Source: a virus. Taken from it: a stretch of DNA of 44,098 nt. The stretch spans positions 1-44,098 of the IMG/VR virus record IMGVR_UViG_3300024265_000103. One strand, given 5' to 3'. A program made the translations under genes and the position numbers. Every line of letters begins with the position of its first letter. Position 1 is the first letter of the stretch. Below are positions 8,146 through 24,669 of the stretch, one piece after another. Under the pieces are notes generated by a model, which had not been told where the DNA came from, did no database searches, and saw only the letters and a program-made list of their open reading frames with translations.

Positions 8146-8350
8146 ATATAAATTAAAACCCTGTAAGCATGGCGGCTTTTTTATATACAGCAAACAGAAG
8201 TTTAAATGGAAATTAGCTAGGGGATATTTATCCGGACATTTCCCAATAATAGAACATGCTATTGATGCTATCAAACTTAAGCATGTGAATGAAAAAGGAA
8301 ATATTAAAATATCAATAAGTTCTAAATATACAGTGATAAGGGATAAATAA
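8132..8350 (+). CDS. hypothetical basic protein, 72 aa
   Basis: Follows AAAAGGA and ends one base into the clamp gene start (TAATG). The protein is lysine- and aromatic-rich (KYKYKLKPCKHGGFFIYSKQ) with one central H-x(n)-H region. No domain is recognised. Coupling to the sliding-clamp gene suggests replication timing, not function. Confidence 0.55.
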   Translation: MKKYKYKLKPCKHGGFFIYSKQKFKWKLARGYLSGHFPIIEHAIDAIKLKHVNEKGNIKISISSKYTVIRDK

Positions 8351-9444
8351 TGGAATGTAAACGTAAAGATTTATTGGCTGCAGTAGAAAGAGTTATGCCT
8401 GGAGTTGGAAGTGAAAGAGCTCTTCTTGAAGGAGTTCAGACTATTGTTTTTACTGCTTCAGGACTCCATACTTATAATGCCAGAGTTTGTGTTACCTGTC
8501 CTTTTTCAACAGAAGACATAGCTGGTAGTGTCTCCGGAGACAAACTTCATAAATTATTGAAGAAAGGTAAATCAGAAGATTTAATTCTCTCAATAACAGA
8601 AGATGCTTTGGAAATAAAAGCTGGGAAAACTACAGCTTCTTTAACATTTTTTAAAGCTGAAATTGTGCAGAAAAAAATAGCTACTATCCACAGCTTAATA
8701 CCTTCAGAAGATCTCCCAAGAGATTTCCGGAAAGCATTAAGTTGTTGTGGTATTAAAGGTAATATTACTAAATGGTCCGGAGTATATTTTAAAGACTATA
8801 TGGTTTATGGAACCAATCAGGTTGTTAGTAATTTCTTTAATATTTCTCATTCTATGGGAGAGTTTTGGATCAGTCAAAAAAATGTTGAAACTATTCTTAA
8901 AATTAAAACTGGACTGAAAGCTTATGATGTATCTGGAAAAGAATCTGCTGAATGGTTTCATCTCATAGATGAAGATGGTACTATTTTCAGTTTTATTCTT
9001 CAGGATACTGCAACATTTACAGGAGCACTTAATTTCTTACTGGCTCAGGAAGAAGAGGAAGATAATAAAAAATATTTTAATACTAAAATACCTAAAGGAT
9101 TTCTTTCTGCAGTTGATGAATGCTCTGTTTTAAGTAGTAAATCAGATGATGCAAAAAAACAGTTTATCAGAGTTACTTTTAGTGAAGATGAATTACTGTT
9201 TGCTGCAGATAGTAAAAATGGAAAAGTAACCTCTTCAGTAGAATGGACTTCTCCCTTAGTAGCTTTTGATAAAATTGAAGAGGGACGTTACTATGTTGAT
9301 TACCTGAAAGATGCCTCTGAAAAGTGTAAGAGGATTATGATTAAACCTATGAAATTAGCAAAAAATAAAGTCTATCCTCTTATTATCATGACCACCCCAG
9401 GATTCAAATCTATGATTTGTCCTCTGTTTGAAAAAGAAGTTTGA
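8350..9444 (+). CDS. DNA polymerase sliding clamp (beta/DnaN-like), 364 aa
   Basis: The length equals bacterial DnaN (about 366 aa). The layout fits three clamp subdomains: residues 1-115 (open with MECKRKDLLAAVERVMPGVG and contain VSGDKLHKLLKKG, the DnaN position of the first helices), 120-245, and 250-364 ending in a short beta tail (GFKSMICPLFEKEV). Direct identity to DnaN is low, so the call rests on length, helix/strand rhythm and context. The window also encodes a family A polymerase and a clamp-loader ATPase, which would need a clamp. A ring around DNA giving processivity is the expected role. Confidence 0.72.
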   Translation: MECKRKDLLAAVERVMPGVGSERALLEGVQTIVFTASGLHTYNARVCVTCPFSTEDIAGSVSGDKLHKLLKKGKSEDLILSITEDALEIKAGKTTASLTFFKAEIVQKKIATIHSLIPSEDLPRDFRKALSCCGIKGNITKWSGVYFKDYMVYGTNQVVSNFFNISHSMGEFWISQKNVETILKIKTGLKAYDVSGKESAEWFHLIDEDGTIFSFILQDTATFTGALNFLLAQEEEEDNKKYFNTKIPKGFLSAVDECSVLSSKSDDAKKQFIRVTFSEDELLFAADSKNGKVTSSVEWTSPLVAFDKIEEGRYYVDYLKDASEKCKRIMIKPMKLAKNKVYPLIIMTTPGFKSMICPLFEKEV

Positions 9445-10475: not shown

Positions 10476-13148
10476 ATGGAATCATCTTTTTTTGACTTTG
10501 GTGAAGTAGTAGAAGAAAATCCTTTCTCCACTAAAGTAAATGCTTGTGCGACATGTCCCAAACGTGTAGAAGTTAAAACCCCTATAATGAAATTTGCTGG
10601 AAAGGGTCAACGTAAAATCTTAATAATAAATGGATCTCCCAGTAAAAAAGCTGATAAAGAAGGTAAACCTTTTTATGATAAATCCGGAAAGTTTTTTAGA
10701 GAAACTCTTATGGAGCTTGGTCTTAATTTAGGTAGGGATACTATTTATGGTTATGCTGTGAGCTGTCATATTCCTATGAAGAATAAAAAATCCAATGTAA
10801 GTGATGCTGATATTGGAAGGTGTCATAATATTCTTACAGCAAAAATAAATGAATTCAGGCCACATGTAATAATCACATTAGGAATAGCTGCAGCTGCCAG
10901 TGTGATAAGAACCAGAGCTGCAGGTAGACTTACCGGTATTAAAATGACTGCTTACTATGGTGAGCAGATTCCAGATCAGGATTGGAAAATACACATATGT
11001 CCTACATGGAGTCCTGAAGAAGTTAGAAAATCTGTAGATTTCAAAGGAAAAATAGATCCAGTTATACTTAAACTTTGGAAAAGAGATTTAAGAAAAGCAA
11101 TCAATTTAATTAATAAACCTTTTTACACGCATAATTATAATAGTGAAGTATTTGCATTGCATACATTGAAAGAATCTTTAGATATGCTGGATACTATTTA
11201 TAAATCCTGGACTTGTCTTACTTTTGATTATGAAACAACAGGTCTTAAACCTCATAGAGAAGGTCATTATATTGATTGCGTGGGATTTTCTAATGGTATA
11301 CTTGGAGTTGGGATGCCTTACTTCAGCCATCCTGATTTTCATAAAAAAATGAAACTTATTTTGCGAAGTACAAAGATTAAAAAAATAGCTCATAATGCTA
11401 AGTTTGAAGATACCTGGTCTCATATACGTGGAATTAAACAACATGTTCAAAATATGTATTGGTGTACTATGCTTGGAGCTCACTGTCTACATAACAAAAA
11501 AAATGTTGGAGCTAAATATCTTATCTTTTGTAAATTAGGAATTCTTAATTATGATTCTGAAGTAGATAAGTATTTAAAAGCTACTGAAGAAGAAGAATTG
11601 AAATATGGCAAAAATGCTATTAATCAAATTCATCTGGCAGACACTCATGAAAAACTCATGTATGTAGCAAGAGATGCTCATTTAGAATATAAATTATTTG
11701 AGCACCAGGATTCCAGATTAAAAGGAAATTTAAGAAAAGGTTTTTTGTTTCTTCACAAAGGTACCATGGCTCATGGAATCATGGAAGCTGCTGGTTTTAA
11801 AATTGACATGGAAAAAGCTGAACTTAATACAGGTTTTATGAAAGCAAAAGTAGATGGTCTCTGGGATAGAATATTAGAAATGCCGGAAACTAAAAATTGG
11901 GATCGAAAAATACAAGGAAAAGGATTTCAATATCATATCTATGATAGATTAAAGTTTGATGTTCCTGTAGGAATGTCAGATGATTTAAAACCTGGGAACA
12001 GGCCAGAAAATGAGGAAGCTCTCCTTAGTCTTAAAAATGATTTCATTGATACTATTGTAAAAATAAGAAAACAGAAAAAAATATATGATACTCTAAATAA
12101 ATATACTACAGAAGCCTGTAACGGAATGATACATCCTATGTTTTCCACTCATAACGTCCAGACATTCCGTTCAGGCTGTTCTAATCCCAATATCCAAAAT
12201 CCCTTTAAAAGAAATAAAAAAGCAAAAACTATGCTGCGAACAGCATTAAGACCTTCCCCAGGAAATGAAATATGGGAATGGGATTATAAGATGCTGGAGG
12301 TTGTAATTGCCGGTTGCGTATTTAAAGATCCTGCCTGGCTTGCCTATTGTTTTAAACAAGATACTGCAGATATGCATAAAGATGTATCTTTTGAAATGCT
12401 TTTTCTTGATGATGAGATATATGATGCATGGATGGAAGTTATTGATCCTCTTAATGGTTTAAAAGTAGCCAAAACAGTACGGCAAGCCAGTAAAAACGGT
12501 TACGTATTTCCTTCTGTATATGGTGCTGGTCTTGAAAAAACAGCCAGTGGTGTATGGAAGCAGATTCCGGAAATAGTAAAGAAACATTTATCTAAAATTG
12601 GAATGCCTAATGAAGTAGGTGGTCGTCAGAAAGGATCCCCCATTAATTCATATGCTCGTTTCAAAGAATGGATGAGAATATATATCGATTATTACTGGAA
12701 TGAAAAGTACCCTACTTATAAAGCCAATAGAGATGTCATGTATAAAAAATATTTAAGAGATGGTTATGTAGACATGCTGACAGGCTTTAGATACTGGGGG
12801 CCCATGAGTTTTAATAACTTCTGTAATGGACCAGTACAGGGACCTGCCAGTCATATCAAATTATGGACCATGGAAAAAACCCAGAAAGAAGCTAAAAAAT
12901 TAGGACTCAGATCAAAACAAATTTATGAAATTCATGACAGTATAGGTTGGGACGGTGTTCCGGAAGAAAGAGAAATTGTTGATGAATTAATGTTTAAGTA
13001 TGGAACTCTCTATGTTAGAGAACATTGGGATTGGATTATTTCTCCTTCAACGCTTGAAAAAGAAGTCAGTGGTATTGATGGTACCTGGAATGATATGAAA
13101 GAACTTAAAGAAGAAAAATGGATTAAAGATGAATGGAGAAATATGTGA
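10476..13148 (+). CDS. family A DNA polymerase with 3'-5' exonuclease and N-terminal uracil-DNA-glycosylase-fold domain, 890 aa
   Basis: Three domains in one chain. Residues 20-215 resemble family 4 UDG: four cysteines (C24, C27, C97, C116) at the iron-sulphur positions and GKPFYDKSGKFFRETL where UDGs have G-x-P-F-x-G-x-A-G. But the catalytic GEAPG is NGSPS and the HPA motif is CPTWSP, so base removal is doubtful. Residues about 245-430 are a DnaQ-like exonuclease: FDYETTG, AHNAKFED, YVARDAHLEY. Residues about 440-890 are the polymerase: FRSGCSNPNIQNP, motif A EWDYKMLE (usually DYSQIE), motif B RQASKNGYVFPSVYG, motif C IHDS. It is the main replicase candidate. AGAGGAA supports the start. Confidence 0.92.
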   Translation: MESSFFDFGEVVEENPFSTKVNACATCPKRVEVKTPIMKFAGKGQRKILIINGSPSKKADKEGKPFYDKSGKFFRETLMELGLNLGRDTIYGYAVSCHIPMKNKKSNVSDADIGRCHNILTAKINEFRPHVIITLGIAAAASVIRTRAAGRLTGIKMTAYYGEQIPDQDWKIHICPTWSPEEVRKSVDFKGKIDPVILKLWKRDLRKAINLINKPFYTHNYNSEVFALHTLKESLDMLDTIYKSWTCLTFDYETTGLKPHREGHYIDCVGFSNGILGVGMPYFSHPDFHKKMKLILRSTKIKKIAHNAKFEDTWSHIRGIKQHVQNMYWCTMLGAHCLHNKKNVGAKYLIFCKLGILNYDSEVDKYLKATEEEELKYGKNAINQIHLADTHEKLMYVARDAHLEYKLFEHQDSRLKGNLRKGFLFLHKGTMAHGIMEAAGFKIDMEKAELNTGFMKAKVDGLWDRILEMPETKNWDRKIQGKGFQYHIYDRLKFDVPVGMSDDLKPGNRPENEEALLSLKNDFIDTIVKIRKQKKIYDTLNKYTTEACNGMIHPMFSTHNVQTFRSGCSNPNIQNPFKRNKKAKTMLRTALRPSPGNEIWEWDYKMLEVVIAGCVFKDPAWLAYCFKQDTADMHKDVSFEMLFLDDEIYDAWMEVIDPLNGLKVAKTVRQASKNGYVFPSVYGAGLEKTASGVWKQIPEIVKKHLSKIGMPNEVGGRQKGSPINSYARFKEWMRIYIDYYWNEKYPTYKANRDVMYKKYLRDGYVDMLTGFRYWGPMSFNNFCNGPVQGPASHIKLWTMEKTQKEAKKLGLRSKQIYEIHDSIGWDGVPEEREIVDELMFKYGTLYVREHWDWIISPSTLEKEVSGIDGTWNDMKELKEEKWIKDEWRNM

Positions 13149-14338: not shown

Positions 14339-15220
14339 ATGAAAGAATTTTATCAAGATTGGAATCTCAATAATAAATCATACCGATTAATCGAAAATAT
14401 AAATATGATTCTTGCTGAATATGAAGAACAAGGTTACAAGCTTACATTAAGACAACTCTTTTATCAACTTGTTAAACAAAATATCATCCCTAGTACTATA
14501 AAAGAATATGCTAAATTAGGCACTGTTGTTAGTAAAGGGCGTTTAGCCGGTATGATAGATTGGTATATGATTGAAGACAGAGGTAGAATTCCGGTTGATA
14601 GAACTCATTGGGATAATCCTACAGAAATATTAGAAATGGCAATGAAAACCTACTATCGATCAAGATGGGAAACTCAAACTTATTATGTAGAAGTAATGAG
14701 TGAAAAAGACGCTGTTTCTAATATTATACAACCTGTGTGTCGTAGATGGGATGTAACTTTCACTGCTAATAAAGGATATTCTTCTTTATCTGCTTTATAT
14801 GAAGCATCATTAAGAATGAAAAAAGCATTTTATAATAGAAAAACATCTGTACTTATTTATCTTGGGGATCATGATCCCTCTGGAATGGATATGACTCGTG
14901 ATATTGAAAATCGCCTTTATATGTTTCTTAAAAACGCAAGTCCTACTGTAATTAGAATAGCTTTAAATATGGATCAAGTAATAGAGTATAATCCTCCTGA
15001 AAATCCAGCTAAAACCACAGATTCAAGATTTCAAAAGTATGCTGATGAATTTGGTGAATCTTCCTGGGAACTTGATGCTTTGGAACCTAAAGTATTAGAA
15101 GATTTAGTAGAAAAAGAAATTACTAGATTGATTGATTTTGATGCCTGGAAAGAAGTAGAGGAATTAGAACATGAACATAAAGAAAAACTCCAGACAGTAG
15201 CTGATGAATTTGAGGATTAA
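14339..15220 (+). CDS. Spo11/topoisomerase VI subunit A-like protein (Toprim), possible Mini-A, 293 aa
   Basis: The N-terminal domain carries TLRQLFYQL (R38, Y42), which resembles the 5Y-CAP catalytic R-x-x-x-Y of Spo11/Topo VI-A, then GRLAGMIDWYMIEDRGR. A Toprim domain follows: VEVMSEKDA (E122), the glycine turn NKGYSS, and YLGDHDPSGMDM (D177, D179). This is the order found in Topo VI-A. The length (293) is less than Topo VI-A (about 370) and no B-subunit ATPase is seen, which matches the 'Mini-A' group described from mobile elements. Toprim is secure; strand breakage through Y42 is inference. AAAGGAG precedes the start. RNase M5 or a primase fits less well. Confidence 0.7.
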   Translation: MKEFYQDWNLNNKSYRLIENINMILAEYEEQGYKLTLRQLFYQLVKQNIIPSTIKEYAKLGTVVSKGRLAGMIDWYMIEDRGRIPVDRTHWDNPTEILEMAMKTYYRSRWETQTYYVEVMSEKDAVSNIIQPVCRRWDVTFTANKGYSSLSALYEASLRMKKAFYNRKTSVLIYLGDHDPSGMDMTRDIENRLYMFLKNASPTVIRIALNMDQVIEYNPPENPAKTTDSRFQKYADEFGESSWELDALEPKVLEDLVEKEITRLIDFDAWKEVEELEHEHKEKLQTVADEFED

Positions 15221-15269: not shown

Positions 15270-15704
15270 ATGAATAAAAAAGAAATGGATGCTGAATTAT
15301 TAAAAATCACAAAGGAAACTTTAGCTCCTAGATTGCAAGAAAAAGAAGATGCTATAAAAAAAATTGATAATCTCTCTATAATGAATAAAGTATATAAGTA
15401 TGGATCTGCATCAGATTTCCTTCATATGATAACTAAACAAGCTCATCCTTTGAACAAAAAGAAAGCTGTGAGATTTATAAAACAAGGTGAAGACTTATAT
15501 TTTAATATGGGAGACTGGCTTAAACCTTATCAAAATAAACTTTTTGAAAAATTAGTGAAAGGTACTATCCAACCTCCAGCCAATAAAAGACTTGATCAAT
15601 TATGGATGTGGATAGCAGCTTGGCAAACTATTGAAAATGCTGTTAGAGCAAGCACAGCTCCAATTGAAGTAGTAAAAATATGGCAATCTGGGAGGCTTTT
15701 TTAA
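15270..15704 (+). CDS. hypothetical helical protein, 144 aa
   Basis: AGAGGATG precedes ATG 15270; the stop overlaps the clamp-loader start (TAATG). The protein is largely alpha-helical with a tryptophan-rich section near the end (QLWMWIAAWQTIENAVRAS). The 49 bases before it hold no gene. Coupling to the clamp loader makes a role as its small subunit possible, but no homology supports this. Confidence 0.6.
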   Translation: MNKKEMDAELLKITKETLAPRLQEKEDAIKKIDNLSIMNKVYKYGSASDFLHMITKQAHPLNKKKAVRFIKQGEDLYFNMGDWLKPYQNKLFEKLVKGTIQPPANKRLDQLWMWIAAWQTIENAVRASTAPIEVVKIWQSGRLF

Positions 15705-16633
15705 TGGGTTATACTAAAAAATATAGACCTACTACTTTCAAAGATGTAATTGGAAATGGACCTCAAGTTGTTGCTCTGGAAAAAAGTGTTGAAAAAGATA
15801 ATCCTATTCAGGCTTATATCATTGTAGGACCTCATGGAGTAGGTAAAACCACCTTAGCAAGAGTAGCTTGTAAAGCTTTAGAAATAGATCCTTACAATAT
15901 TACAGAAATGAATCTAGCTCAGGATGGTTTAAAAGCTGATTCTAAAAATATCATTGAAGAATGCAATGTTGTCAGTCACGGTAACAGGGGATGGATTCTT
16001 GATGAAATGCAGGATTCCAGTAAAGCTTTTCAGAATGGTATCAGAAAATTATTAGAAGAACCCTCTCCTTGTGATTTCTTTTTTATCTGCACCACTAATC
16101 CAAAAAAAATTATTGATGAAATCAAAGGCAGATGCACACCTATTAAACTTAATTTAGTGAAAGATTCTTCCATTAAAAAATTACTTAAAAAGATCTGCAG
16201 AGAAGAGAATTTCATTCTGGATCCTGAAGTATTAGAAATGCTCACAGAAGCTGCTGACGGTCATGTGCGTGATGCTGTTAAGTTATTGGATACTGTATCC
16301 GGAATGGAAGAAGAATACATTCAGGAGTACCTTGAGAGCAATGTAGCAGGACTTAGTGAAGACATCCCAGAAGTAATAAACTTCTGTAGGATGTACTTTA
16401 CCGGTAGTTCCGGAAAATCTTTAAAACTACTTAGTGCTCTTAAGAAAGAAAGAATTGAACCTGAAACAATAAGAAGAACTATTTTAAATTATGGTTGTTC
16501 TATTATGTTAAGAGATGGGTCAAAGGCTTCTGCAATTGCTGAAATGTTGGAATGGTTTGAAGAGCCTCTGTTCGATACTGGAACAGCATGGCCTTTATTG
16601 ATAACAAGAACTGTGAGAAGTCTTACAGATTAA
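15704..16633 (+). CDS. clamp-loader AAA+ ATPase (DnaX/RFC-small-subunit-like), 309 aa
   Basis: Opens MGYTKKYRPTTFKDVIGN, the classic start of DnaX and RFC small subunits. Walker A is VGPHGVGKTT (about 42-51), Walker B is WILDEMQDS (about 95-103), sensor 1 is ICTTNP, followed by EIKGRCTPI (the SRC/GRC arginine motif), then a helical lid and collar. It would open the sliding clamp and load it at primed sites. ATG 15704 is chosen because GGGAGG lies ahead of it and it overlaps the previous stop; an in-frame upstream start at 15680 is less likely. Only one loader-like subunit was found, so it may form a homo-oligomer. Confidence 0.88.
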   Translation: MGYTKKYRPTTFKDVIGNGPQVVALEKSVEKDNPIQAYIIVGPHGVGKTTLARVACKALEIDPYNITEMNLAQDGLKADSKNIIEECNVVSHGNRGWILDEMQDSSKAFQNGIRKLLEEPSPCDFFFICTTNPKKIIDEIKGRCTPIKLNLVKDSSIKKLLKKICREENFILDPEVLEMLTEAADGHVRDAVKLLDTVSGMEEEYIQEYLESNVAGLSEDIPEVINFCRMYFTGSSGKSLKLLSALKKERIEPETIRRTILNYGCSIMLRDGSKASAIAEMLEWFEEPLFDTGTAWPLLITRTVRSLTD

Positions 16634-16647
16634 AATGGAGGAAATAG

Positions 16648-17613
16648 ATGGTAGAGATTAATCGGGACTTAAGAGCCGATAAGCAGATCAATAAAAATTT
16701 GCTGGATGTAGAAGCAGAGATGCAGCCTTATGTTTATGGTGAATGGGCTATGCTTGTAGTTAATGCAAAAGAAGATGTTGATAAAGCAAAATTGAATCTG
16801 GATAAAGTAAGAGCTGAAAGATTTATGTTTCATAAAACACCAGATGAACCTGGAGGAAAGGTTCCCACAGATAAATTGGCTGAAAGTCTTACGGTTATTG
16901 ATGAAGAAGTAATGGAAGCACAGAAAGTTTTTATTACTACTAATAAAGCTCATGGTTACTGTCGTGTAGCTGAAGAAGCTATGCAGCAGAAAAGAAGCAT
17001 GATTAAAATCCTCACTGAATTACACACTACTAAATATTTTCTTAAAGAAGAAGTAAGTGCTGATGTTCGTGAAAATAAAAAGAAAACCAAAGATGCTGCA
17101 ATTGAGGCTATGGATCTGAGTATTTCTGAAATGAATAAGAAGCGCAAGAAGAAAAAGAAACTTTCTAAACCTGAACCAGTAATTATTGATGATAATGAAG
17201 AGGAGGAAGAGGAAGAAATTGATGATAACGATGAAGAACTCTATGATGAAAATGATGGTATTGGTACTTCTGATCCGGAACTTGAAGAAGATGAAGATCT
17301 TGATGTAGATATGGATGAAGAAGAGGAAGAAGTTGTTGTTCCTCCCAAAACCAAAAGATCTGTAAAAACAGGTACTGCAGCCGGAAAACTTAAAGCTCAA
17401 AAACCTACTAAAAGAAAAATCAAAGAACAGGCTGAGATCAATCAGGTGGAAGGGAAAAAAATTCAGAAAAAAATAGCTGATAAGAAAAAAGCTGAAAAAC
17501 CTGAAGGTAAATGCCCTGCTGGTTATTCTTTTGGTAAATCTTTCGGATTAGAACCTGAATGTGATGACTGTGAAATAGATAATGATTGCTTTAAAGCAAG
17601 ACCTAAAAATTAA
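16648..17613 (+). CDS. acidic protein with C-terminal Cys module shared with the SSB, 321 aa
   Basis: Residues 1-160 are helical and charged; about 175-230 are an acidic low-complexity linker (runs of E and D); 230-280 are lysine-rich; the last 35 residues form a Cys module, CPAGYSFGKSFG then PECDDCEIDNDC. Nearly the same module ends the next protein. Such modules end several phage DNA-metabolism proteins and probably bind zinc. A recombination or replication mediator role next to the SSB is inference. GGAGG supports the start. Confidence 0.65.
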   Translation: MVEINRDLRADKQINKNLLDVEAEMQPYVYGEWAMLVVNAKEDVDKAKLNLDKVRAERFMFHKTPDEPGGKVPTDKLAESLTVIDEEVMEAQKVFITTNKAHGYCRVAEEAMQQKRSMIKILTELHTTKYFLKEEVSADVRENKKKTKDAAIEAMDLSISEMNKKRKKKKKLSKPEPVIIDDNEEEEEEEIDDNDEELYDENDGIGTSDPELEEDEDLDVDMDEEEEEVVVPPKTKRSVKTGTAAGKLKAQKPTKRKIKEQAEINQVEGKKIQKKIADKKKAEKPEGKCPAGYSFGKSFGLEPECDDCEIDNDCFKARPKN

Positions 17614-17627
17614 AGGAGTAGTAAATT

Positions 17628-18803
17628 ATGGCTACAAAAAAGAAAAAATCAAGAAAAGTAGGATCTGAAAGGGTTGAATCCCATGTTAATACCAATAATG
17701 CCAGGGGAATGTCTTCTTATACTGGAGTTTTTGATTTTAAAAAATTGAAGAAAAAACCTGAAGTATTCAAAGTTACAAGAGGTAAATCAAACAGATTTAA
17801 TATCATTCCCTTTGAAATTAAATCTGATTTATTCCCAAAGGTAGCTTCCGGAGATCTGGAAGTGGGTGATCTGCATTATTCAATGGAATATTATGTTCAT
17901 AAGAATGTGAACAAAACAAAAGATATTCTTTGCCTCCAGAAAAATTATGGAAAACCCTGTGCCTTATGTGATGCTTCCAGAGAATTATGGGATGAATACA
18001 ATGAATCCGGCAGTGAAAAAACTAAAAAACTGGCTATTAATTTGGGAGCCAAAAGAAGAGCTGTTTACAATGTCAAACCTGTGACAGGTGAAGACAAAGG
18101 TAAAATCATGTTCTTTGATGCTTCCACCTTTATATTTGGTGATGAACTTGCAGATGCTGCAAAAGAATGTGCTGATGGTGAGGGTGTTATTGCCTTTTAT
18201 GAAGTTGAAGATGAAGGTAAGATTGTTAAGTTTCTCGTTCCGGAAGATAAAAAGAAACAGTTCAAACAGTTTTCTTTTATTGACAGGAAAAAACCTGTTC
18301 CGGATTCTGATATTGATAAAGCTTTTTCCTGGGATGAAGCTCTTGTACTTATGACTAATAAGGAAATCAAAGAATTCTACTTCGGTGAAGATGATGAAGT
18401 CAGTGATGATGAAGATGAAGAAGAACTTGATGATGAAGAAGAGGAGGAAGAAGAAGGTGACGAACCTGATGATGATGACTCTGATGAAGATGATGACGAG
18501 GAAGAAGACGAAGAAGATGATGCTGACGATGATGATTCTGATGGAGAAGATGACGAGGACGATGATGAGGATGATGACGAAGAAGAAGAACCTGTAGTTG
18601 CCAAAAAAAAAGTAAAAAAGAGCAACAAGAAGAAGACTTCCTCGACGACATCCCATTCTAAATCATCTCCCAAAAAGAAATCTTCTAAAAGTAAATGTCC
18701 TGAAGATTTTAAGTTTGGCCCTGATTATGGAAAACATCCGGAATGTGATGACTGCGATTTGGAAATGGCCTGTTATAAAGCCAAAAAAGCCAAAAAGAAA
18801 TAA
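17628..18803 (+). CDS. gp32-like single-stranded DNA-binding protein with long acidic tail, 391 aa
   Basis: Basic N-terminal arm (MATKKKKSRK), then an OB-type core with a His-Cys3 zinc site: H91, C102, C111, C114 (spacing close to T4 gp32 H64/C77/C87/C90). From about residue 250, some 70 residues are almost pure D/E, like the gp32 C-terminal recruiting tail but much longer. A Cys module, CPEDFKFGPDYG then PECDDCDLEMAC, ends the protein. It should coat ssDNA at forks and recombination intermediates and recruit partners through its acidic tail. AAAGGAG lies upstream; an intrinsic terminator lies just downstream, fitting a strongly expressed gene. Confidence 0.85.
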   Translation: MATKKKKSRKVGSERVESHVNTNNARGMSSYTGVFDFKKLKKKPEVFKVTRGKSNRFNIIPFEIKSDLFPKVASGDLEVGDLHYSMEYYVHKNVNKTKDILCLQKNYGKPCALCDASRELWDEYNESGSEKTKKLAINLGAKRRAVYNVKPVTGEDKGKIMFFDASTFIFGDELADAAKECADGEGVIAFYEVEDEGKIVKFLVPEDKKKQFKQFSFIDRKKPVPDSDIDKAFSWDEALVLMTNKEIKEFYFGEDDEVSDDEDEEELDDEEEEEEEGDEPDDDDSDEDDDEEEDEEDDADDDDSDGEDDEDDDEDDDEEEEPVVAKKKVKKSNKKKTSSTTSHSKSSPKKKSSKSKCPEDFKFGPDYGKHPECDDCDLEMACYKAKKAKKK

Positions 18804-19162: not shown

Positions 19163-19543
19163 ATGCCATCTGAGGTATACTTAAAGACTGGTGAAGCTTT
19201 AGCAATGATTAAACGATTTGAATTAGAATATTCTATTCAAACCTTAAGATTACAACCGTTTGCCTGGAAGAATCCTAAAGATAAGCATTGGTATTTTAAA
19301 CGAGATCAGCTAATTCAATTCTTAAAAATAAGAAAAGGAACTTCCAAATGGAAAATAATTCCTTTCCCTAAAGATAAAAATCGTACACGAATGTGGAGAA
19401 TTATTGCTATGAATCGTTTAAGAGTAAGTATCTATCAAGGAAAGGATGTAATTCATCATGAAGATTATAACACCCTCAAAGAGCTCCTGGATCGAAAACC
19501 AGGTAAACTCAGCAATAAAGAAGGATATAAAAATGAAAACTGA
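19163..19543 (+). CDS. helix-turn-helix (MerR/excisionase-like) protein, 126 aa
   Basis: Opens VYLKTGEALAMIKRF, then TLRLQPFAWKNPKDKHWYFKRDQL, the pattern of MerR-like 'helix_turn_helix_17' excisionase folds: a first helix, a recognition helix, a beta wing, and a Y-x-F-x-R-D-x-L-x-x-F end. It may bind DNA as a regulator; no integrase is seen. It overlaps the recombinase gene by 11 bases. The fold call is moderate. Confidence 0.6.
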   Translation: MPSEVYLKTGEALAMIKRFELEYSIQTLRLQPFAWKNPKDKHWYFKRDQLIQFLKIRKGTSKWKIIPFPKDKNRTRMWRIIAMNRLRVSIYQGKDVIHHEDYNTLKELLDRKPGKLSNKEGYKNEN

Positions 19544-20765
19544 ATTTGCCAGAACTGGCTGCCATCTACTTGATTTATATTTTGGAGGAGGCAGAGGACT
19601 TGGAATTCCCTATGGAATAGCTATCAATCTATGTGGAGATACTGGTAGTGGTAAATCCATGCTCGGAAATGAAATGATTGCTGCAGAACATCACCATAGA
19701 AAAGATAAGTTTGATTGGCAATATGAAGATGGTGAAAATGGAAATAATTTTGATACTACTGAATTGTATGGTGTAGATATTATGGGAGGCAATCTTTTAC
19801 TTGAACACACAAAAAAACTCCCTATTAGACCTAAAACAGTAGAAGATATGGATGCCAGACTTTCTATCTTTCTTGGAATGCTTCCCAAAAAGCATTTTGG
19901 AATTTATTTTATGGACAGTTTAGATTCTATCTCTGATGAAGATAAAATGAGTCGTTCAAAAAAAAGAAAAGAAGAATATGAGAAAGGTAAAACTTTTGAT
20001 GAAGGTACTTATGGGATGGCTTCTGCAAAGTTCTTAAGTCAGGAATTCTTCCGAACTCAAACAGCTAAACTACAAGGTAGTAAAGTTATATTGGGTATCG
20101 TCAGTCAGGTTCGGGAAAAAATAGGAGCTAAACAATATCAGAAAAAATTAAAAACTTCTGGAGGAAAAGCTAAAAAACACTGGATGGATATAGAAGTGTG
20201 GTTCACTCCTATTAAAGATCTTAAAAATGAAGGTAGTGATCTTGTAAATGGTATCTTTGTAGAAGTAGAAGGTCTTAAGTCCCGTGATGGCAGAATGAAA
20301 AGAAAAGCTCGTTTCCTTTATTATACTGACTATGGTATTGATGATGTTGGAACCAGTCTTACTTTTCTTTATGATATTAGAAGTAAAGACAAAGGTGAGT
20401 ATCGAAAAACTATTGCTAACAATATTCCCTGGGAAGTTGCAGATAAACCCAAATTAGATCTTGCTGGTGTAGTAGAATGGTTAAATTTAAATGAAGGTAT
20501 TAAAAAGAAATATCAAACTTTTAGAAAAAAAATAGATGGTAAAAGAGCTGTTAAACTTAGTATTGTAATGAAATTTATAACTGTCTTTCCTAAATTAAAA
20601 TTGATTTTTGATGATCATTTTGGAGCTCCTATTGATTTCAATACTCTCAGACTTCAAATAATGAAGGATCCTATATTAAAAAAAGAACTTGATAAAAAAG
20701 TTACTGATAAATGGGAAGCTATTGAAGCTGCTGCTAAAAGCGGCCTTGGGAGAAAATACGAATGA
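19533..20765 (+). CDS. RecA/UvsX-like recombinase, 410 aa
   Basis: ATG 19533 is chosen: AAGGA is 8-9 bases upstream, while in-frame ATG 19458 lies deep in the previous gene. Residues 1-40 read TGCHLLDLYFGGGRGLGIPYG then LCGDTGSGKSM (Walker A, about 33-41), the RecA-core opening. Walker B-like YFMDSLDSI is at about 122-130 and VILGIVSQVREKIG corresponds to RecA/UvsX L1-region strands. The length exceeds RecA (about 350) and equals UvsX (about 390). It should form filaments on ssDNA for recombination-dependent replication with the SSB, RuvC-like and SbcCD proteins encoded nearby. Confidence 0.85.
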   Translation: MKTEFARTGCHLLDLYFGGGRGLGIPYGIAINLCGDTGSGKSMLGNEMIAAEHHHRKDKFDWQYEDGENGNNFDTTELYGVDIMGGNLLLEHTKKLPIRPKTVEDMDARLSIFLGMLPKKHFGIYFMDSLDSISDEDKMSRSKKRKEEYEKGKTFDEGTYGMASAKFLSQEFFRTQTAKLQGSKVILGIVSQVREKIGAKQYQKKLKTSGGKAKKHWMDIEVWFTPIKDLKNEGSDLVNGIFVEVEGLKSRDGRMKRKARFLYYTDYGIDDVGTSLTFLYDIRSKDKGEYRKTIANNIPWEVADKPKLDLAGVVEWLNLNEGIKKKYQTFRKKIDGKRAVKLSIVMKFITVFPKLKLIFDDHFGAPIDFNTLRLQIMKDPILKKELDKKVTDKWEAIEAAAKSGLGRKYE

Positions 20766-20995: not shown

Positions 20996-21510
20996 TTATT
21001 ATAGGTATAGATCCTGGTGTAGCTGGGGCAATCGCTGCTATCCAACATAAAGAAGTTCTTGAAGTTCATGATCTGCCTCTATTAACTACTTTTAAAACTA
21101 CAAAAACTAAAAGTGGAAAACAAAAAAAGAATAATCAATTAGATATTGAAGAGTTCTTTATTATGTATAAAGACATGGTAAGAGCATGGAGACCAGAATT
21201 AGTAATAATAGAAAAAGTAACTTCTATGCCTGGAGATGGTGCTGTAAGTGCTTTTGCCTTTGGACAGACATTTGGAAGAATTGAAAGTATTATAAGAACT
21301 ACTGGAGGAAGCAGAATTCATTATACTACTCCTCCTGTATGGAAAAAACACCATAAATTACTGAAGAAAGGAAAACAGGCTGCTGTTGAATTATGCCGGC
21401 TTCATTATCCTGATATGATAAGTATTTTTTTAAAAACAAAAGATGGCAGAGCTGATGCTGTACTTATAGCTGAATATGGGAGGTACTTATGCTTAAGTCA
21501 CTTAGATTAG
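20992..21510 (+). CDS. RuvC-like Holliday junction resolvase, 172 aa
   Basis: RNase H-fold resolvase with the four acidic residues of RuvC: D7 in IIIGIDPG, a glutamate in VIIEKV (about 73), and two aspartates in KDGRADAVLIAEY (about 146-150). The length matches RuvC (about 170). TTG start, overlapping the previous stop as TTGA, behind AAGAAGG. Would cut four-way junctions made by the RecA-like protein so DNA can be packaged. Confidence 0.9.
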   Translation: MIIIGIDPGVAGAIAAIQHKEVLEVHDLPLLTTFKTTKTKSGKQKKNNQLDIEEFFIMYKDMVRAWRPELVIIEKVTSMPGDGAVSAFAFGQTFGRIESIIRTTGGSRIHYTTPPVWKKHHKLLKKGKQAAVELCRLHYPDMISIFLKTKDGRADAVLIAEYGRYLCLSHLD

Positions 21511-22739
21511 TTAATTTTCAAGCTCATATTGATTCTTTCATTGAATTGGATGAGGGGATAACGAGTTTAACCGGAGAATCTCACGAAGGTAAAACAGCCA
21601 TCATGAGAGGATTGAATTGGGCTGTTAATAATGAACCTGCAGGAACCGGCTTTATATCCTATTGGGCCAAACATCAAACTAAAAAAGGAATGACTGTAAT
21701 TGATCGATCTTGTAAAGTTGAATGTATTCGGGAAGATGGTTCTATTCTTATTCGGGAAAGATCTCTCAGTTTCAATGGTTATCGAATTAATGGTAAAGAT
21801 CTGGCGAGAGCTGGTGTAGGAGTCCCTGATGAAGTTAAAAAATGGTTTAACATGGGTGAAGTCAATATTCAGAATCAGCATGATAGTCTTTTCTTGCTTC
21901 ATTCAGGCGGTAAAGGAGGCCAGGAAGTTGCAAGATTCCTTAACTCGGTTGTCAAACTGGATGAAATCCCAAGAGCTTTAACTGCTGTAGAAAGTAAAAA
22001 AAGATCTATTAAAAAATTAAGAGAAGCTGAAACTGAGAAAATTACTTCTTGTGAAAGAGATATTAAATCTCTAGGCTGGATTTTGAAAGCTGAACCAGTA
22101 TTTAAACGTTTGGAAAAAGTAGAGAAAGATATTGAAGATTTGGAAGATAAAGAAAACACCATAATCGAAGAAATTGATAAGTATAATGGTTTAAAAGATG
22201 TTCTTGAATTATTTAAATGGACTAAAAATACTTCTCCTTTAGTAGAAAGGTGGTTATCTCTCTATAATAAAGAAGCTCATATACTTGATAATCAAAAGTC
22301 TATAAACATTTCTCTCACTTCTTTTTATAAAAATCAATCAATCTTAGTAGTACATCAGGATTGGCTTCCAGAAGCTGAAAAAGCTATTTCTAAGATAAAA
22401 GAAATTGAAAATGATATAGGTTTTTCTACACTCCATATCCAAAATATTGAACAGCAAATAATAAAACATGATACTGCAATTCTTTTTCTTGAAAATAATC
22501 AACCTTGGTTGGAAAATACTGCTGATAAAATTATGCAATTAGAAATGTTGGATGACACTATTGGAGAATTAGAAAATAAAGAATTAAATATTTCTAATGA
22601 GATCACTCTTTTTGAAAGACATGAGGCATCATTAAAAGAATGGAGCACCATGCTGCAAAAAGATGAAAAGAGACTCCCTGCTATTTGCCCTCTTTGCAAA
22701 TCATCATGGAAAGGGGATAAACATGAAAATAGCCGTTAG
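21489..22739 (+). CDS. SbcC/Rad50 N-terminal half, ending at the zinc hook, 416 aa
   Basis: Opens LKSLRLVNFQAHIDSFIELDEGITSLTGE, the SbcC/Rad50 start, with Walker A GESHEGKT (29-36) and the Q-loop region INIQNQHDSLFLL (as VNIQNQHDS). Residues about 175-395 are coiled coil. It then stops 13 residues after the hook CPLC (C400, C403). Lacking signature motif and Walker B, it cannot be an ATPase alone; those lie in the gene at 24046-24669. With SbcD it would form an Mre11-Rad50-type DNA end-processing nuclease. Start supported by GGGAGG; overlaps the RuvC-like gene by 22 bases. Confidence 0.9.
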   Translation: MLKSLRLVNFQAHIDSFIELDEGITSLTGESHEGKTAIMRGLNWAVNNEPAGTGFISYWAKHQTKKGMTVIDRSCKVECIREDGSILIRERSLSFNGYRINGKDLARAGVGVPDEVKKWFNMGEVNIQNQHDSLFLLHSGGKGGQEVARFLNSVVKLDEIPRALTAVESKKRSIKKLREAETEKITSCERDIKSLGWILKAEPVFKRLEKVEKDIEDLEDKENTIIEEIDKYNGLKDVLELFKWTKNTSPLVERWLSLYNKEAHILDNQKSINISLTSFYKNQSILVVHQDWLPEAEKAISKIKEIENDIGFSTLHIQNIEQQIIKHDTAILFLENNQPWLENTADKIMQLEMLDDTIGELENKELNISNEITLFERHEASLKEWSTMLQKDEKRLPAICPLCKSSWKGDKHENSR

Positions 22740-23598
22740 TGCCGATTTCCATCTCCGGAGAGACCGGCCTAGAGTAAGAACAGATGAAGATTGGATCCTC
22801 TCTCAAAAAAATAATGTGGTAGAACTCTTCAGGAAATGTCGAGATCTAAATGTTGATAAATTGCTTTTAGTTGGTGATATACTTGATTCCTCTAATCAAC
22901 CTCCCTGGGTAGTAAATATTATTCCGGAAGCTATGGACACTGTAAAAGCAGAGGGACCTTGGTCAGTGGAGGTTCATATTATCCCAGGAAACCATGATTT
23001 ACAGCATCACCAGTACGCTAATCTTCATAACAGCAGTATAGGGAACTTAATGAGAATGAAGGGCGTGGTGCCCCATGGTGTGAATAAGAAGTTTGAAAAT
23101 ACTGATTTTCTTGAAGAATTTGGAATTGTGATTATTCATCGATTAATCATGCCTGATGCAAATGAAAGTCTGGCCCGATTAGCAAATGCGGAAATAGCTG
23201 CCGATATCATGGAATCATTTCCTACTGCTGAATTTATACTCACTGGAGATTATCATAAACATTATGTAGAAATATACGAAGATACTATTCTTTTCAATCC
23301 TGGATGTCTAAACCGGCAAAGTGCTGATGAGAAAAATTATGAAGTAGGTTTCTATGCTTTTGATACTGAAGATAGCAGTTATGGGTTTTTCCCATTAGAA
23401 AGTGATGATGTGACCTTGATAGATGATTCATATCTGGTAGAGCAACATGCTCGTGAGGATTCCCTTACAGCATATGCAGAACAATTAGCAAGTTCCAAAG
23501 GTCTGTCTTTTGATCTCTGGGAAGTCGTGAAAAAACTGTCAGTGAACAGTTCAAAACTTGTAAAAAATATATTAGAGGAGATAAGAACTAATGTCTAA
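22723..23598 (+). CDS. sbcD: SbcD/Mre11-like nuclease, 291 aa
   Basis: Calcineurin-like phosphoesterase with all metal motifs: ADFHLRRD (DxH, D8/H10), LLVGDILDSS (GDxxD), IPGNHDLQHH (GNHD) and LTGDYHKH (GDxH), plus NPGCLNRQS. ATG 22723 is preferred, with AAAGGGG ahead; in-frame ATG 22663 lies inside the SbcC half and would add a poor N-terminus. It overlaps the SbcC-N stop by 17 bases. This Mn-dependent nuclease cuts DNA ends and hairpins when coupled to the SbcC ATPase. Confidence 0.92.
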   Translation: MKIAVSADFHLRRDRPRVRTDEDWILSQKNNVVELFRKCRDLNVDKLLLVGDILDSSNQPPWVVNIIPEAMDTVKAEGPWSVEVHIIPGNHDLQHHQYANLHNSSIGNLMRMKGVVPHGVNKKFENTDFLEEFGIVIIHRLIMPDANESLARLANAEIAADIMESFPTAEFILTGDYHKHYVEIYEDTILFNPGCLNRQSADEKNYEVGFYAFDTEDSSYGFFPLESDDVTLIDDSYLVEQHAREDSLTAYAEQLASSKGLSFDLWEVVKKLSVNSSKLVKNILEEIRTNV

Positions 23599-23890
23599 AG
23601 AAATGACTATTGAACAAGTAGAAGCTTTACAGGCTAAAATAGCTGAATTAACCACAGAATGTGCAGAAACTGAAGGAGCTATTAAGCAAATTAAAGCCCA
23701 ATGGAAATCTGAATACAAATGTGATACTAAAGAAGAGATGGAAGCATTACAGAAAGAAACTGCAGAACGTATTTCAATGCTCCAGGTGAAACGAGAAACA
23801 CTCACAGCTAAAATTCAAGAACTTCTTCCGGAAGAAATTCTTAATGCTATAATAGATGATGACGAAGACGAAGAAGATGAAGATTACTGA
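23591..23890 (+). CDS. coiled-coil protein with acidic tail, 99 aa
   Basis: Residues 5-80 are heptad-like (EQVEALQAKIAELTTEC, then EEMEALQKETAERISML), then a D/E tail. GAGGAG upstream; overlaps sbcD by 8 bases. It lies between sbcD and SbcC-C, so it might pair with the split coiled coils, which is speculation. Confidence 0.65.
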   Translation: MSKEMTIEQVEALQAKIAELTTECAETEGAIKQIKAQWKSEYKCDTKEEMEALQKETAERISMLQVKRETLTAKIQELLPEEILNAIIDDDEDEEDEDY

Positions 23891-24053
23891 GTTAGATGTG
23901 GCTTTAGAAGCTATAAAAGACATAGCTAATAAATTGAATATGCCAATAGAAAGTGTAAAAAATGTACTTATTAAATTATCACAAAGAGGAATATCTGGTG
24001 CTAAAGGTGGTAAACTTTTACGTGATAAACTAAAGGAATTGCGAAATGAATAA
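23877..24053 (+). CDS. hypothetical small protein, 58 aa
   Basis: Starts MKITELDVALEAIKDIANKL with a weak GAAGAAG site inside the acidic end of the previous gene; an in-frame ATG at 23856 is the alternative. Looks like three short helices with a basic end (KLLRDKLKELRNE). Overlaps the SbcC-C gene by 8 bases. Could be a small helix-turn-helix; not certain. Confidence 0.5.
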   Translation: MKITELDVALEAIKDIANKLNMPIESVKNVLIKLSQRGISGAKGGKLLRDKLKELRNE

Positions 24054-24669
24054 TACAGCATTAAGAAACATACTGGATAAGAAAAAATATCTCCTGGAAG
24101 AAACAGAAATATCTCTGGAACAGGCTGAACTAAAAAAAGTAAAACTGAGTAAAAAATTAGAAGCTGTGGAAAAAGCTCAGTTAATTATCCAAACAGCTGC
24201 TCATCAAATTGAAAGAAGTATTGCTTATCATCTTTCAGATCTGGTTAATACTCCTCTACAGGCTTTGTTTCCGGGAAATGTATTTGATATCGACTTTACC
24301 ACAAAGAACAACAATAGCCATGCTGCTATCACTGTGGAGAAAGGTGGAAGCAAACAAGCTCCCCTGGATTCTGCAGGTGGTGGACTCGCTGACGTAGTGG
24401 CTTTAGGATTGAGATTAGCTGTATGGAGCATGGGAAAAACAGCTAATTTATTATGTTTGGATGAGCCGGCAAAAAATCTTGATGTGGTCCGGTCTCCTAT
24501 CATGACTCAATTACTAAAAGACATCAGTGATCAATTGGAAGTACAGGTATTATTAAGTACTCATAAAGAGGATCAGATTGACAGTGCTGATCGGGTATAC
24601 AAAATAGTTCAGAAATTCAATAAAAAACTGGGATATAAAGTTTCCAGAGTTAATTTAGTAAGGAGTTAA
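24046..24669 (+). CDS. SbcC/Rad50 C-terminal half with signature motif and Walker B, 207 aa
   Basis: Starts with a coiled coil (residues 5-60), then the C-terminal ATPase lobe: signature-like LDSAGGGLADVVALGLRLA (about 106-124), Walker B plus D-loop LLCLDEPAKNLD (about 135-146) and H-loop LLSTHKED (about 168-175). It has no Walker A. These are the parts missing from the protein at 21489-22739, so the two halves should assemble into one ATPase head. AAAGGAA precedes the start. It may be shorter than an intact half because its coil is short compared with the N-half coil. Confidence 0.88.
   Translation: MNNTALRNILDKKKYLLEETEISLEQAELKKVKLSKKLEAVEKAQLIIQTAAHQIERSIAYHLSDLVNTPLQALFPGNVFDIDFTTKNNNSHAAITVEKGGSKQAPLDSAGGGLADVVALGLRLAVWSMGKTANLLCLDEPAKNLDVVRSPIMTQLLKDISDQLEVQVLLSTHKEDQIDSADRVYKIVQKFNKKLGYKVSRVNLVRS

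Follow-up and report, generated by a model that had tools for sequence, protein, structure and literature searches.

The window analysed here, which is the entire IMG/VR viral record IMGVR_UViG_3300024265_000103 (44,098 bases, and possibly less than the full viral genome), carries a gene that, judged by homology and by a predicted structure, encodes a full-length Mini-A protein. Mini-A proteins are small relatives, carried by phages and plasmids, of Topo VI-A (the DNA-cutting subunit of topoisomerase VI) and of the meiotic enzyme Spo11. Sequence comparison and modelling establish its family identity, both of its domains and its conserved catalytic residues; neither an ATPase partner nor a fixed neighbouring gene was detected for the family. 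Taken as a whole, we consider it likely that Mini-A is a homodimeric homologue of Topo VI-A and Spo11 which, lacking a B subunit, would manage the DNA topology or integrity of the element that carries it. The family has been named before and occurs widely; the window gene is an ordinary further member of it.

A phage gene of the Mini-A family

PHROG scans revealed baseplate wedge and tape measure genes in the record, which thus derives from a tailed phage. The mini-A gene begins 16 bases past an MT-A70-type methyltransferase gene, its start codon is ATG and a good ribosome-binding site lies upstream (aaaaggagatatatatg). The open reading frame and its residues R38, Y42, E122, D177 and D179 were found on the + strand exactly where an earlier sequence-only reading had put them (Table 1).

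Table 1. Coordinates of the mini-A gene and of its predicted domains and residues in the window
Feature	Position	Strand	Basis
mini-A gene, 293-aa Topo VI-A/Spo11-like protein	14339..15220	+	Open reading frame; phrog_6247; identity to NP1 protein
Winged-helix domain, about residues 8-82	14360..14584	+	Modelled alone; best match 1d3y Top6A
Toprim domain, about residues 105-264	14651..15130	+	1d3y match; profile-profile comparison with Top6A
R38, counterpart of the clasp residue R102 in M. mazei Top6A	14450..14452	+	Invariant in 176 homologues; on invariant R of 32 Top6A
Y42, predicted catalytic tyrosine, equivalent to M. mazei Y106 and M. jannaschii Top6A residue 103	14462..14464	+	Invariant in 176 homologues; on invariant Y of 32 Top6A; structural offset of 61 to 1d3y
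E122, Toprim metal-site glutamate, equivalent to M. mazei Top6A E202	14702..14704	+	Conservation and Top6A alignment
D177-x-D179, Toprim DxD motif inside GDHDPSG	14867..14875	+	Conservation and Top6A alignment
E244, probable counterpart of E342, the fourth acidic and clasp residue in M. mazei Top6A	15068..15070	+	Kept in 174/176 homologues; L-INS-i alignment

That reading had further proposed a lone protein resembling Spo11 and Topo VI-A, possibly a Mini-A, a proposal borne out by the homologies given here together with the two domains and the catalytic residues. Phrog_6247, a family that bears the annotation 'DNA topoisomerase', covers residues 1-293 with a score of 353.6 bits, and gp49 of phage NP1 is 41.7% identical to the window protein over 100% of its length. 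The NP1 Mini-A is the example drawn in a 2021 review, where Mini-A proteins are described as homologues of Top6A that archaeal viruses and bacteriophages carry in truncated form (PMC7614492). A gene annotated 'Topo Mini-A' on the plasmid of an uncultured archaeon is 32.4% identical to ours (E 3e-22), and related genes also occur on plasmids of 8.8 kb and 15 kb. Credit for the family reportedly goes to Takahashi et al. in 2020. Homologues were present in 76 of 50,697 phage records, with 69 of them covering at least 80% of the length and many already annotated as DNA topoisomerase, while scans of viral contigs and of genome contigs yielded at least 585 confirmed relatives and 219 relatives, respectively. 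The Mini-A reading frame of locus L071 reaches 658 aa; the roughly 337 extra residues that precede its Mini-A part may be fused to it or may simply come from an upstream frame that happens to be open.

When the window protein was searched as a single sequence, neither Pfam nor NCBIfam returned a match and phmmer against the PDB gave noise only; such searches being uninformative, profiles and structure were needed. The Pfam family of the Top6A/Spo11 Toprim, PF21180, did not match the window protein either; it matched 2 of 22 relatives weakly (0.009) and the Mini-A of locus L187 at 5e-4.

ATPase partner and neighbouring genes

Topoisomerase VI is defined by its Top6B ATPase partner, and none was found for the window protein. 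The sequence-only reading had noted the missing B subunit, and a search for GHKL ATPases (HATPase_c) across all 44,098 bases indeed came back empty. Since the record may be incomplete, this absence is weak evidence when taken alone and the relatives provide a stronger case. No HATPase_c domain was detected in 13 relatives or in an overlapping set of 57 records, so that the 60 distinct Mini-A records, the window and 59 others, contain none, although the viral contigs among them may be incomplete. Of the 60, 14 are phages or plasmids from GenBank, most of them with complete genomes, and the same search was positive in 14 of 14 control genomes. The lack of a B subunit is therefore the rule in the Mini-A family.

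A dedicated partner of another kind was sought among the neighbouring genes. When the proteins encoded up to about 9 kb from each of 83 viral Mini-A genes were clustered, DnaB-like helicases, integrases and primase-like proteins emerged as the commonest clusters, each present in 9 of the 83 loci and at varied positions. Likewise, no PHROG family occurred more than 4 times among 119 immediate neighbours. These counts rule out a partner gene conserved by neighbourhood. SbcCD can also be discarded as an obligate companion, since 6 of the 57 Mini-A records scanned have an SbcD-like gene, a raw count given without a background rate.

These figures bear on the role that the sequence-only reading had suggested for the protein, that of starting recombination-dependent replication together with SbcCD. 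The neighbourhood it relied on is real: a UvsX/RecA-like recombinase gene lies at 19458-20765, and the stretch 21489-24669 holds SbcC/SbcD-like genes. The role nevertheless finds no support as a family trait: SbcD-like genes are scarce, no neighbour is fixed, and the SbcCD/UvsX setting is thus particular to the phage of the window. In its explicit form, this alternative makes Mini-A a Spo11-like enzyme which would introduce lasting protein-bound breaks; SbcCD would then strip off the protein and the UvsX-like recombinase would use the freed ends for recombination-dependent replication. UvsX-, gp32-, RuvC-, SbcC- and SbcD-like genes do form one gene cluster with mini-A, the catalytic core is common to Spo11 (8urq, Z 9.1 for the Toprim region), and recombination genes stand beside some relatives, namely a Sak4-like gene in NP1 and RecE- and Erf-like genes elsewhere. 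Yet none of these recombination genes is a fixed neighbour of Mini-A, the SbcD-like gene is confined to the small share of records given above, and the 8.8-kb plasmid has no recombination gene annotated beside its Mini-A. We consequently regard such a break-maker as unlikely. The combination of no conserved neighbour with related genes residing on plasmids as small as 8.8 kb and 15 kb argues that Mini-A acts alone; it probably does so, or else works with host factors.

Other genes of the window deserve mention. SbcC/Rad50 seems to be split: one gene (21489-22739) encodes an N-terminal half that contains AAA_23 and ends at a CPLC hook-like motif, another (24046-24669) encodes a C-terminal half bearing the signature and Walker B motifs, and the SbcD-like gene (22663-23598) sits between the two. 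At 10476-13148, a family A DNA polymerase that includes a 3'-5' exonuclease carries a uracil-DNA glycosylase domain at its N-terminal end. A processivity-factor-like protein (phrog_947, 8350-9444) and a DnaX-like clamp loader (15680-16633) are encoded alongside the UvsX-like and gp32-like proteins. Directly downstream of mini-A, a 144-aa gene (15270-15704) had no convincing match in Pfam or PHROGs, and two adjoining proteins encoded at 16648-18803 bear long acidic D/E stretches, the second being gp32-like.

Domain structure and catalytic residues

The AlphaFold2 model of the window protein has a mean pLDDT of 93.4 and a pTM of 0.85. When the whole model was compared with the PDB by Foldseek, M. 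mazei Topo VI-A ranked first, weakly (E 1.4e-3, TM 0.35), presumably on account of a differing orientation of the two domains. The winged helix was also modelled alone (pLDDT 85.3). Foldseek retrieved 1d3y weakly with it (E 4.2), and a second structural aligner gave as best match the same structure, M. jannaschii Top6A, with Z 8.3 and an rmsd of 2.2 Å over 69 residues, followed by M. mazei Top6A at Z 7.6. Residues 11-82 superpose on 1d3y residues 72-143, which brings Y42 onto residue 103, the catalytic tyrosine of M. jannaschii Top6A. A search of viral predicted structures with Foldseek gave nothing interpretable.

Profile-profile comparison with Top6A aligned the Toprim only (E 1.3e-4, probability 53%) and supports the link for that domain. 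Forcing the alignment to be global yielded nonsense and was discarded. A profile search of PDB sequences retrieved 1d3y only, with a non-significant E of 0.38, and set TLRqlyY opposite TLREAYY.

Solely based on its Toprim, the protein could equally be a metal-dependent nuclease of the JetD/Toprim type, in which bent DNA would be hydrolysed by the Toprim alone and Y42 would be structural. The Toprim region matches 1d3y with Z 11.4 (147 residues, 3.6 Å) and JetD-type nucleases with Z 10.6-10.7, and as differences in Z below 1 were counted as ties, this domain cannot separate Top6A from JetD. Furthermore, DUF2399/JetD profiles pick up 5 of 22 homologues, with E of about 1e-3 to 1e-4, the window protein itself giving 0 matches. 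Against this reading, Top6A is the best winged-helix match in the domain search, so the best match is not a Toprim family devoid of the winged-helix tyrosine, and R38 and Y42, at Top6A positions, are invariant in 176 homologues. A JetD-type activity is thus quite improbable, and a Topo VI-A-like enzyme remains the reading we favour.

Among these 176 distinct homologues Y42, part of the segment that the sequence-only reading likened to the catalytic tyrosine region of Spo11/Topo VI-A, never varies, and neither do R38, E122, G146, S149, G176, D177, P180 and G182; D179 is kept in 175 of 176 (99.4%). Most loci were fetched with the pattern GD[HY]DPSG, so the figures for the GDxDPSG part, D177 and D179 included, carry a selection bias from which those for R38, Y42 and E122 are free. 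A first set of 22 sequences, gathered mainly by plain tblastn, shows the same residue conservation. The single D179 exception, an N, belongs to the Mini-A of Haloarcula virus HCIV-1 (locus L009, 3989-5017). In terms of aligned sequences, the R38/Y42/E122/D177/D179 pattern is far beyond chance. That Mini-A might be a catalytically silent DNA-binding relic, by analogy with the many Topo VIII proteins reported in variable states of inactivation (PMC7614492), is most improbable given that all catalytic residues persist in 176 diverse homologues, bar one D to N.

Free alignment with 32 archaeal Top6A sequences placed R38, Y42, E122, K123, G146, D177, D179, G182, D228 and R230 on identical Top6A residues. 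Thirteen columns were both conserved and identical in Mini-A and Top6A, versus 2-6 in seven controls prepared by an identical recipe with Top6A reversed or its columns shuffled. Because such controls can also strike single catalytic columns by chance, the argument for Top6A rests on the number of columns and on its agreement with the structure. In M. mazei Top6A, the tyrosine is Y106, the Toprim tetrad comprises E202, the 254/256 pair and E342, and R102 and E342 form a clasp (PMC13040014). The PDB chain sequence of this protein places R102 and Y106 within 'LRELYY', so that R38 corresponds to R102 and Y42 to Y106, and E342 is the first E of 'AEQQAF'. E244, in 'WELDAL', falls on the invariant Top6A glutamate in the L-INS-i alignment but not in the E-INS-i one; it is probably the equivalent of E342.

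Proposed mechanism and comparison with known systems

The trans active site, the clasp and the sensitivity to bending are known from M. mazei Topo VI. In that enzyme the winged helices are pulled inward for cleavage by the ATPase subunit and restrained from moving in by the R102-E342 clasp (PMC13040014). By analogy, Mini-A would most likely form a homodimer whose two Y42 residues each attack a different strand of a bent duplex gripped by the paired Toprim domains. As in Topo VI and Spo11, the active site would be assembled in trans from Y42 of one subunit and from E122, D177, D179 and Mg2+ of the partner's Toprim, and the product would be a transient, reversible 5'-phosphotyrosyl double-strand break made independently of ATP. 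R38 and probably E244 would act as a clasp keeping the tyrosine away until bent, crossed or supercoiled DNA is bound. Its task would probably be to relax or unlink the DNA of the carrying element as this replicates, either unaided or together with host factors.

Alignment with Top6A suggests that the clasp appears to be kept, as R38 and probably E244, despite the absent ATPase subunit, which leads us to infer that either the shape of the DNA or a host factor controls Mini-A. Conversely, Topo VI needs its ATPase subunit for the movement of the winged helices, and a B-less Mini-A might for this reason be inactive or need an unrecognised partner. Reviews list the function of Mini-A as unknown and no archaeal Mini-A as characterised (PMC8084294, PMC8185306), and our literature search, made mostly without subscription papers, met no description of a Mini-A biochemical activity (PMC8185306, PMC7614492 and PMC8084294 included). 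A bolder version of the proposal sees in Mini-A a homodimeric type IIB cleavage enzyme that is self-sufficient and independent of ATP, with an R38-E244 clasp that DNA bending or crossing, in place of an ATPase subunit, would free; the way cleavage is controlled in Topo VI and Spo11 would then be older than the B subunit or able to do without it. This version is put forward tentatively and strikes us as rather doubtful.

The window protein shares with NP1 gp49 its length, two-domain layout, catalytic residues and lack of a B subunit. No feature was found to distinguish it from other Mini-A proteins, which are carried by phages, archaeal viruses and plasmids in general; S52 stands where 170 of 176 have N. 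With Top6A it has in common, in the same order, a winged helix with RxxYY, a Toprim with E and DxD and a probable fourth acidic residue. The catalytic tyrosine is residue 42 in the window protein and lies at about 96-111 in archaeal Top6A, indicating that the N-terminal segment of Top6A is missing (about 55-70 residues fewer); the stretch from DxD to the last glutamate is also about 24 residues shorter, and Top6B is absent. Spo11, a Topo VI-A relative that breaks DNA without strand passage and works with a B-like partner complex, has the catalytic core in common with Mini-A but no close sequence match. JetD, the Wadjet nuclease, has a Toprim fold that matches nearly as well as that of Top6A, whereas the winged-helix tyrosine motif is invariant in Mini-A; no JetABC partners were recognised among the genes scanned. 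Topo VIII, which like Mini-A resides on mobile elements and is listed as type IIB as well, carries a B ATPase part that the window Mini-A lacks.

Mini-A is the Topo VI-A/Spo11 cutting module at its smallest, and it is common in phages. The useful points of the comparison are the firm catalytic assignment, the clasp residues that seem to have been retained, and the lack of a fixed partner in the many genomes compared. If Mini-A does cut DNA alone, it would show how the module is kept under control in the absence of an ATPase, which bears on the origin of Spo11.
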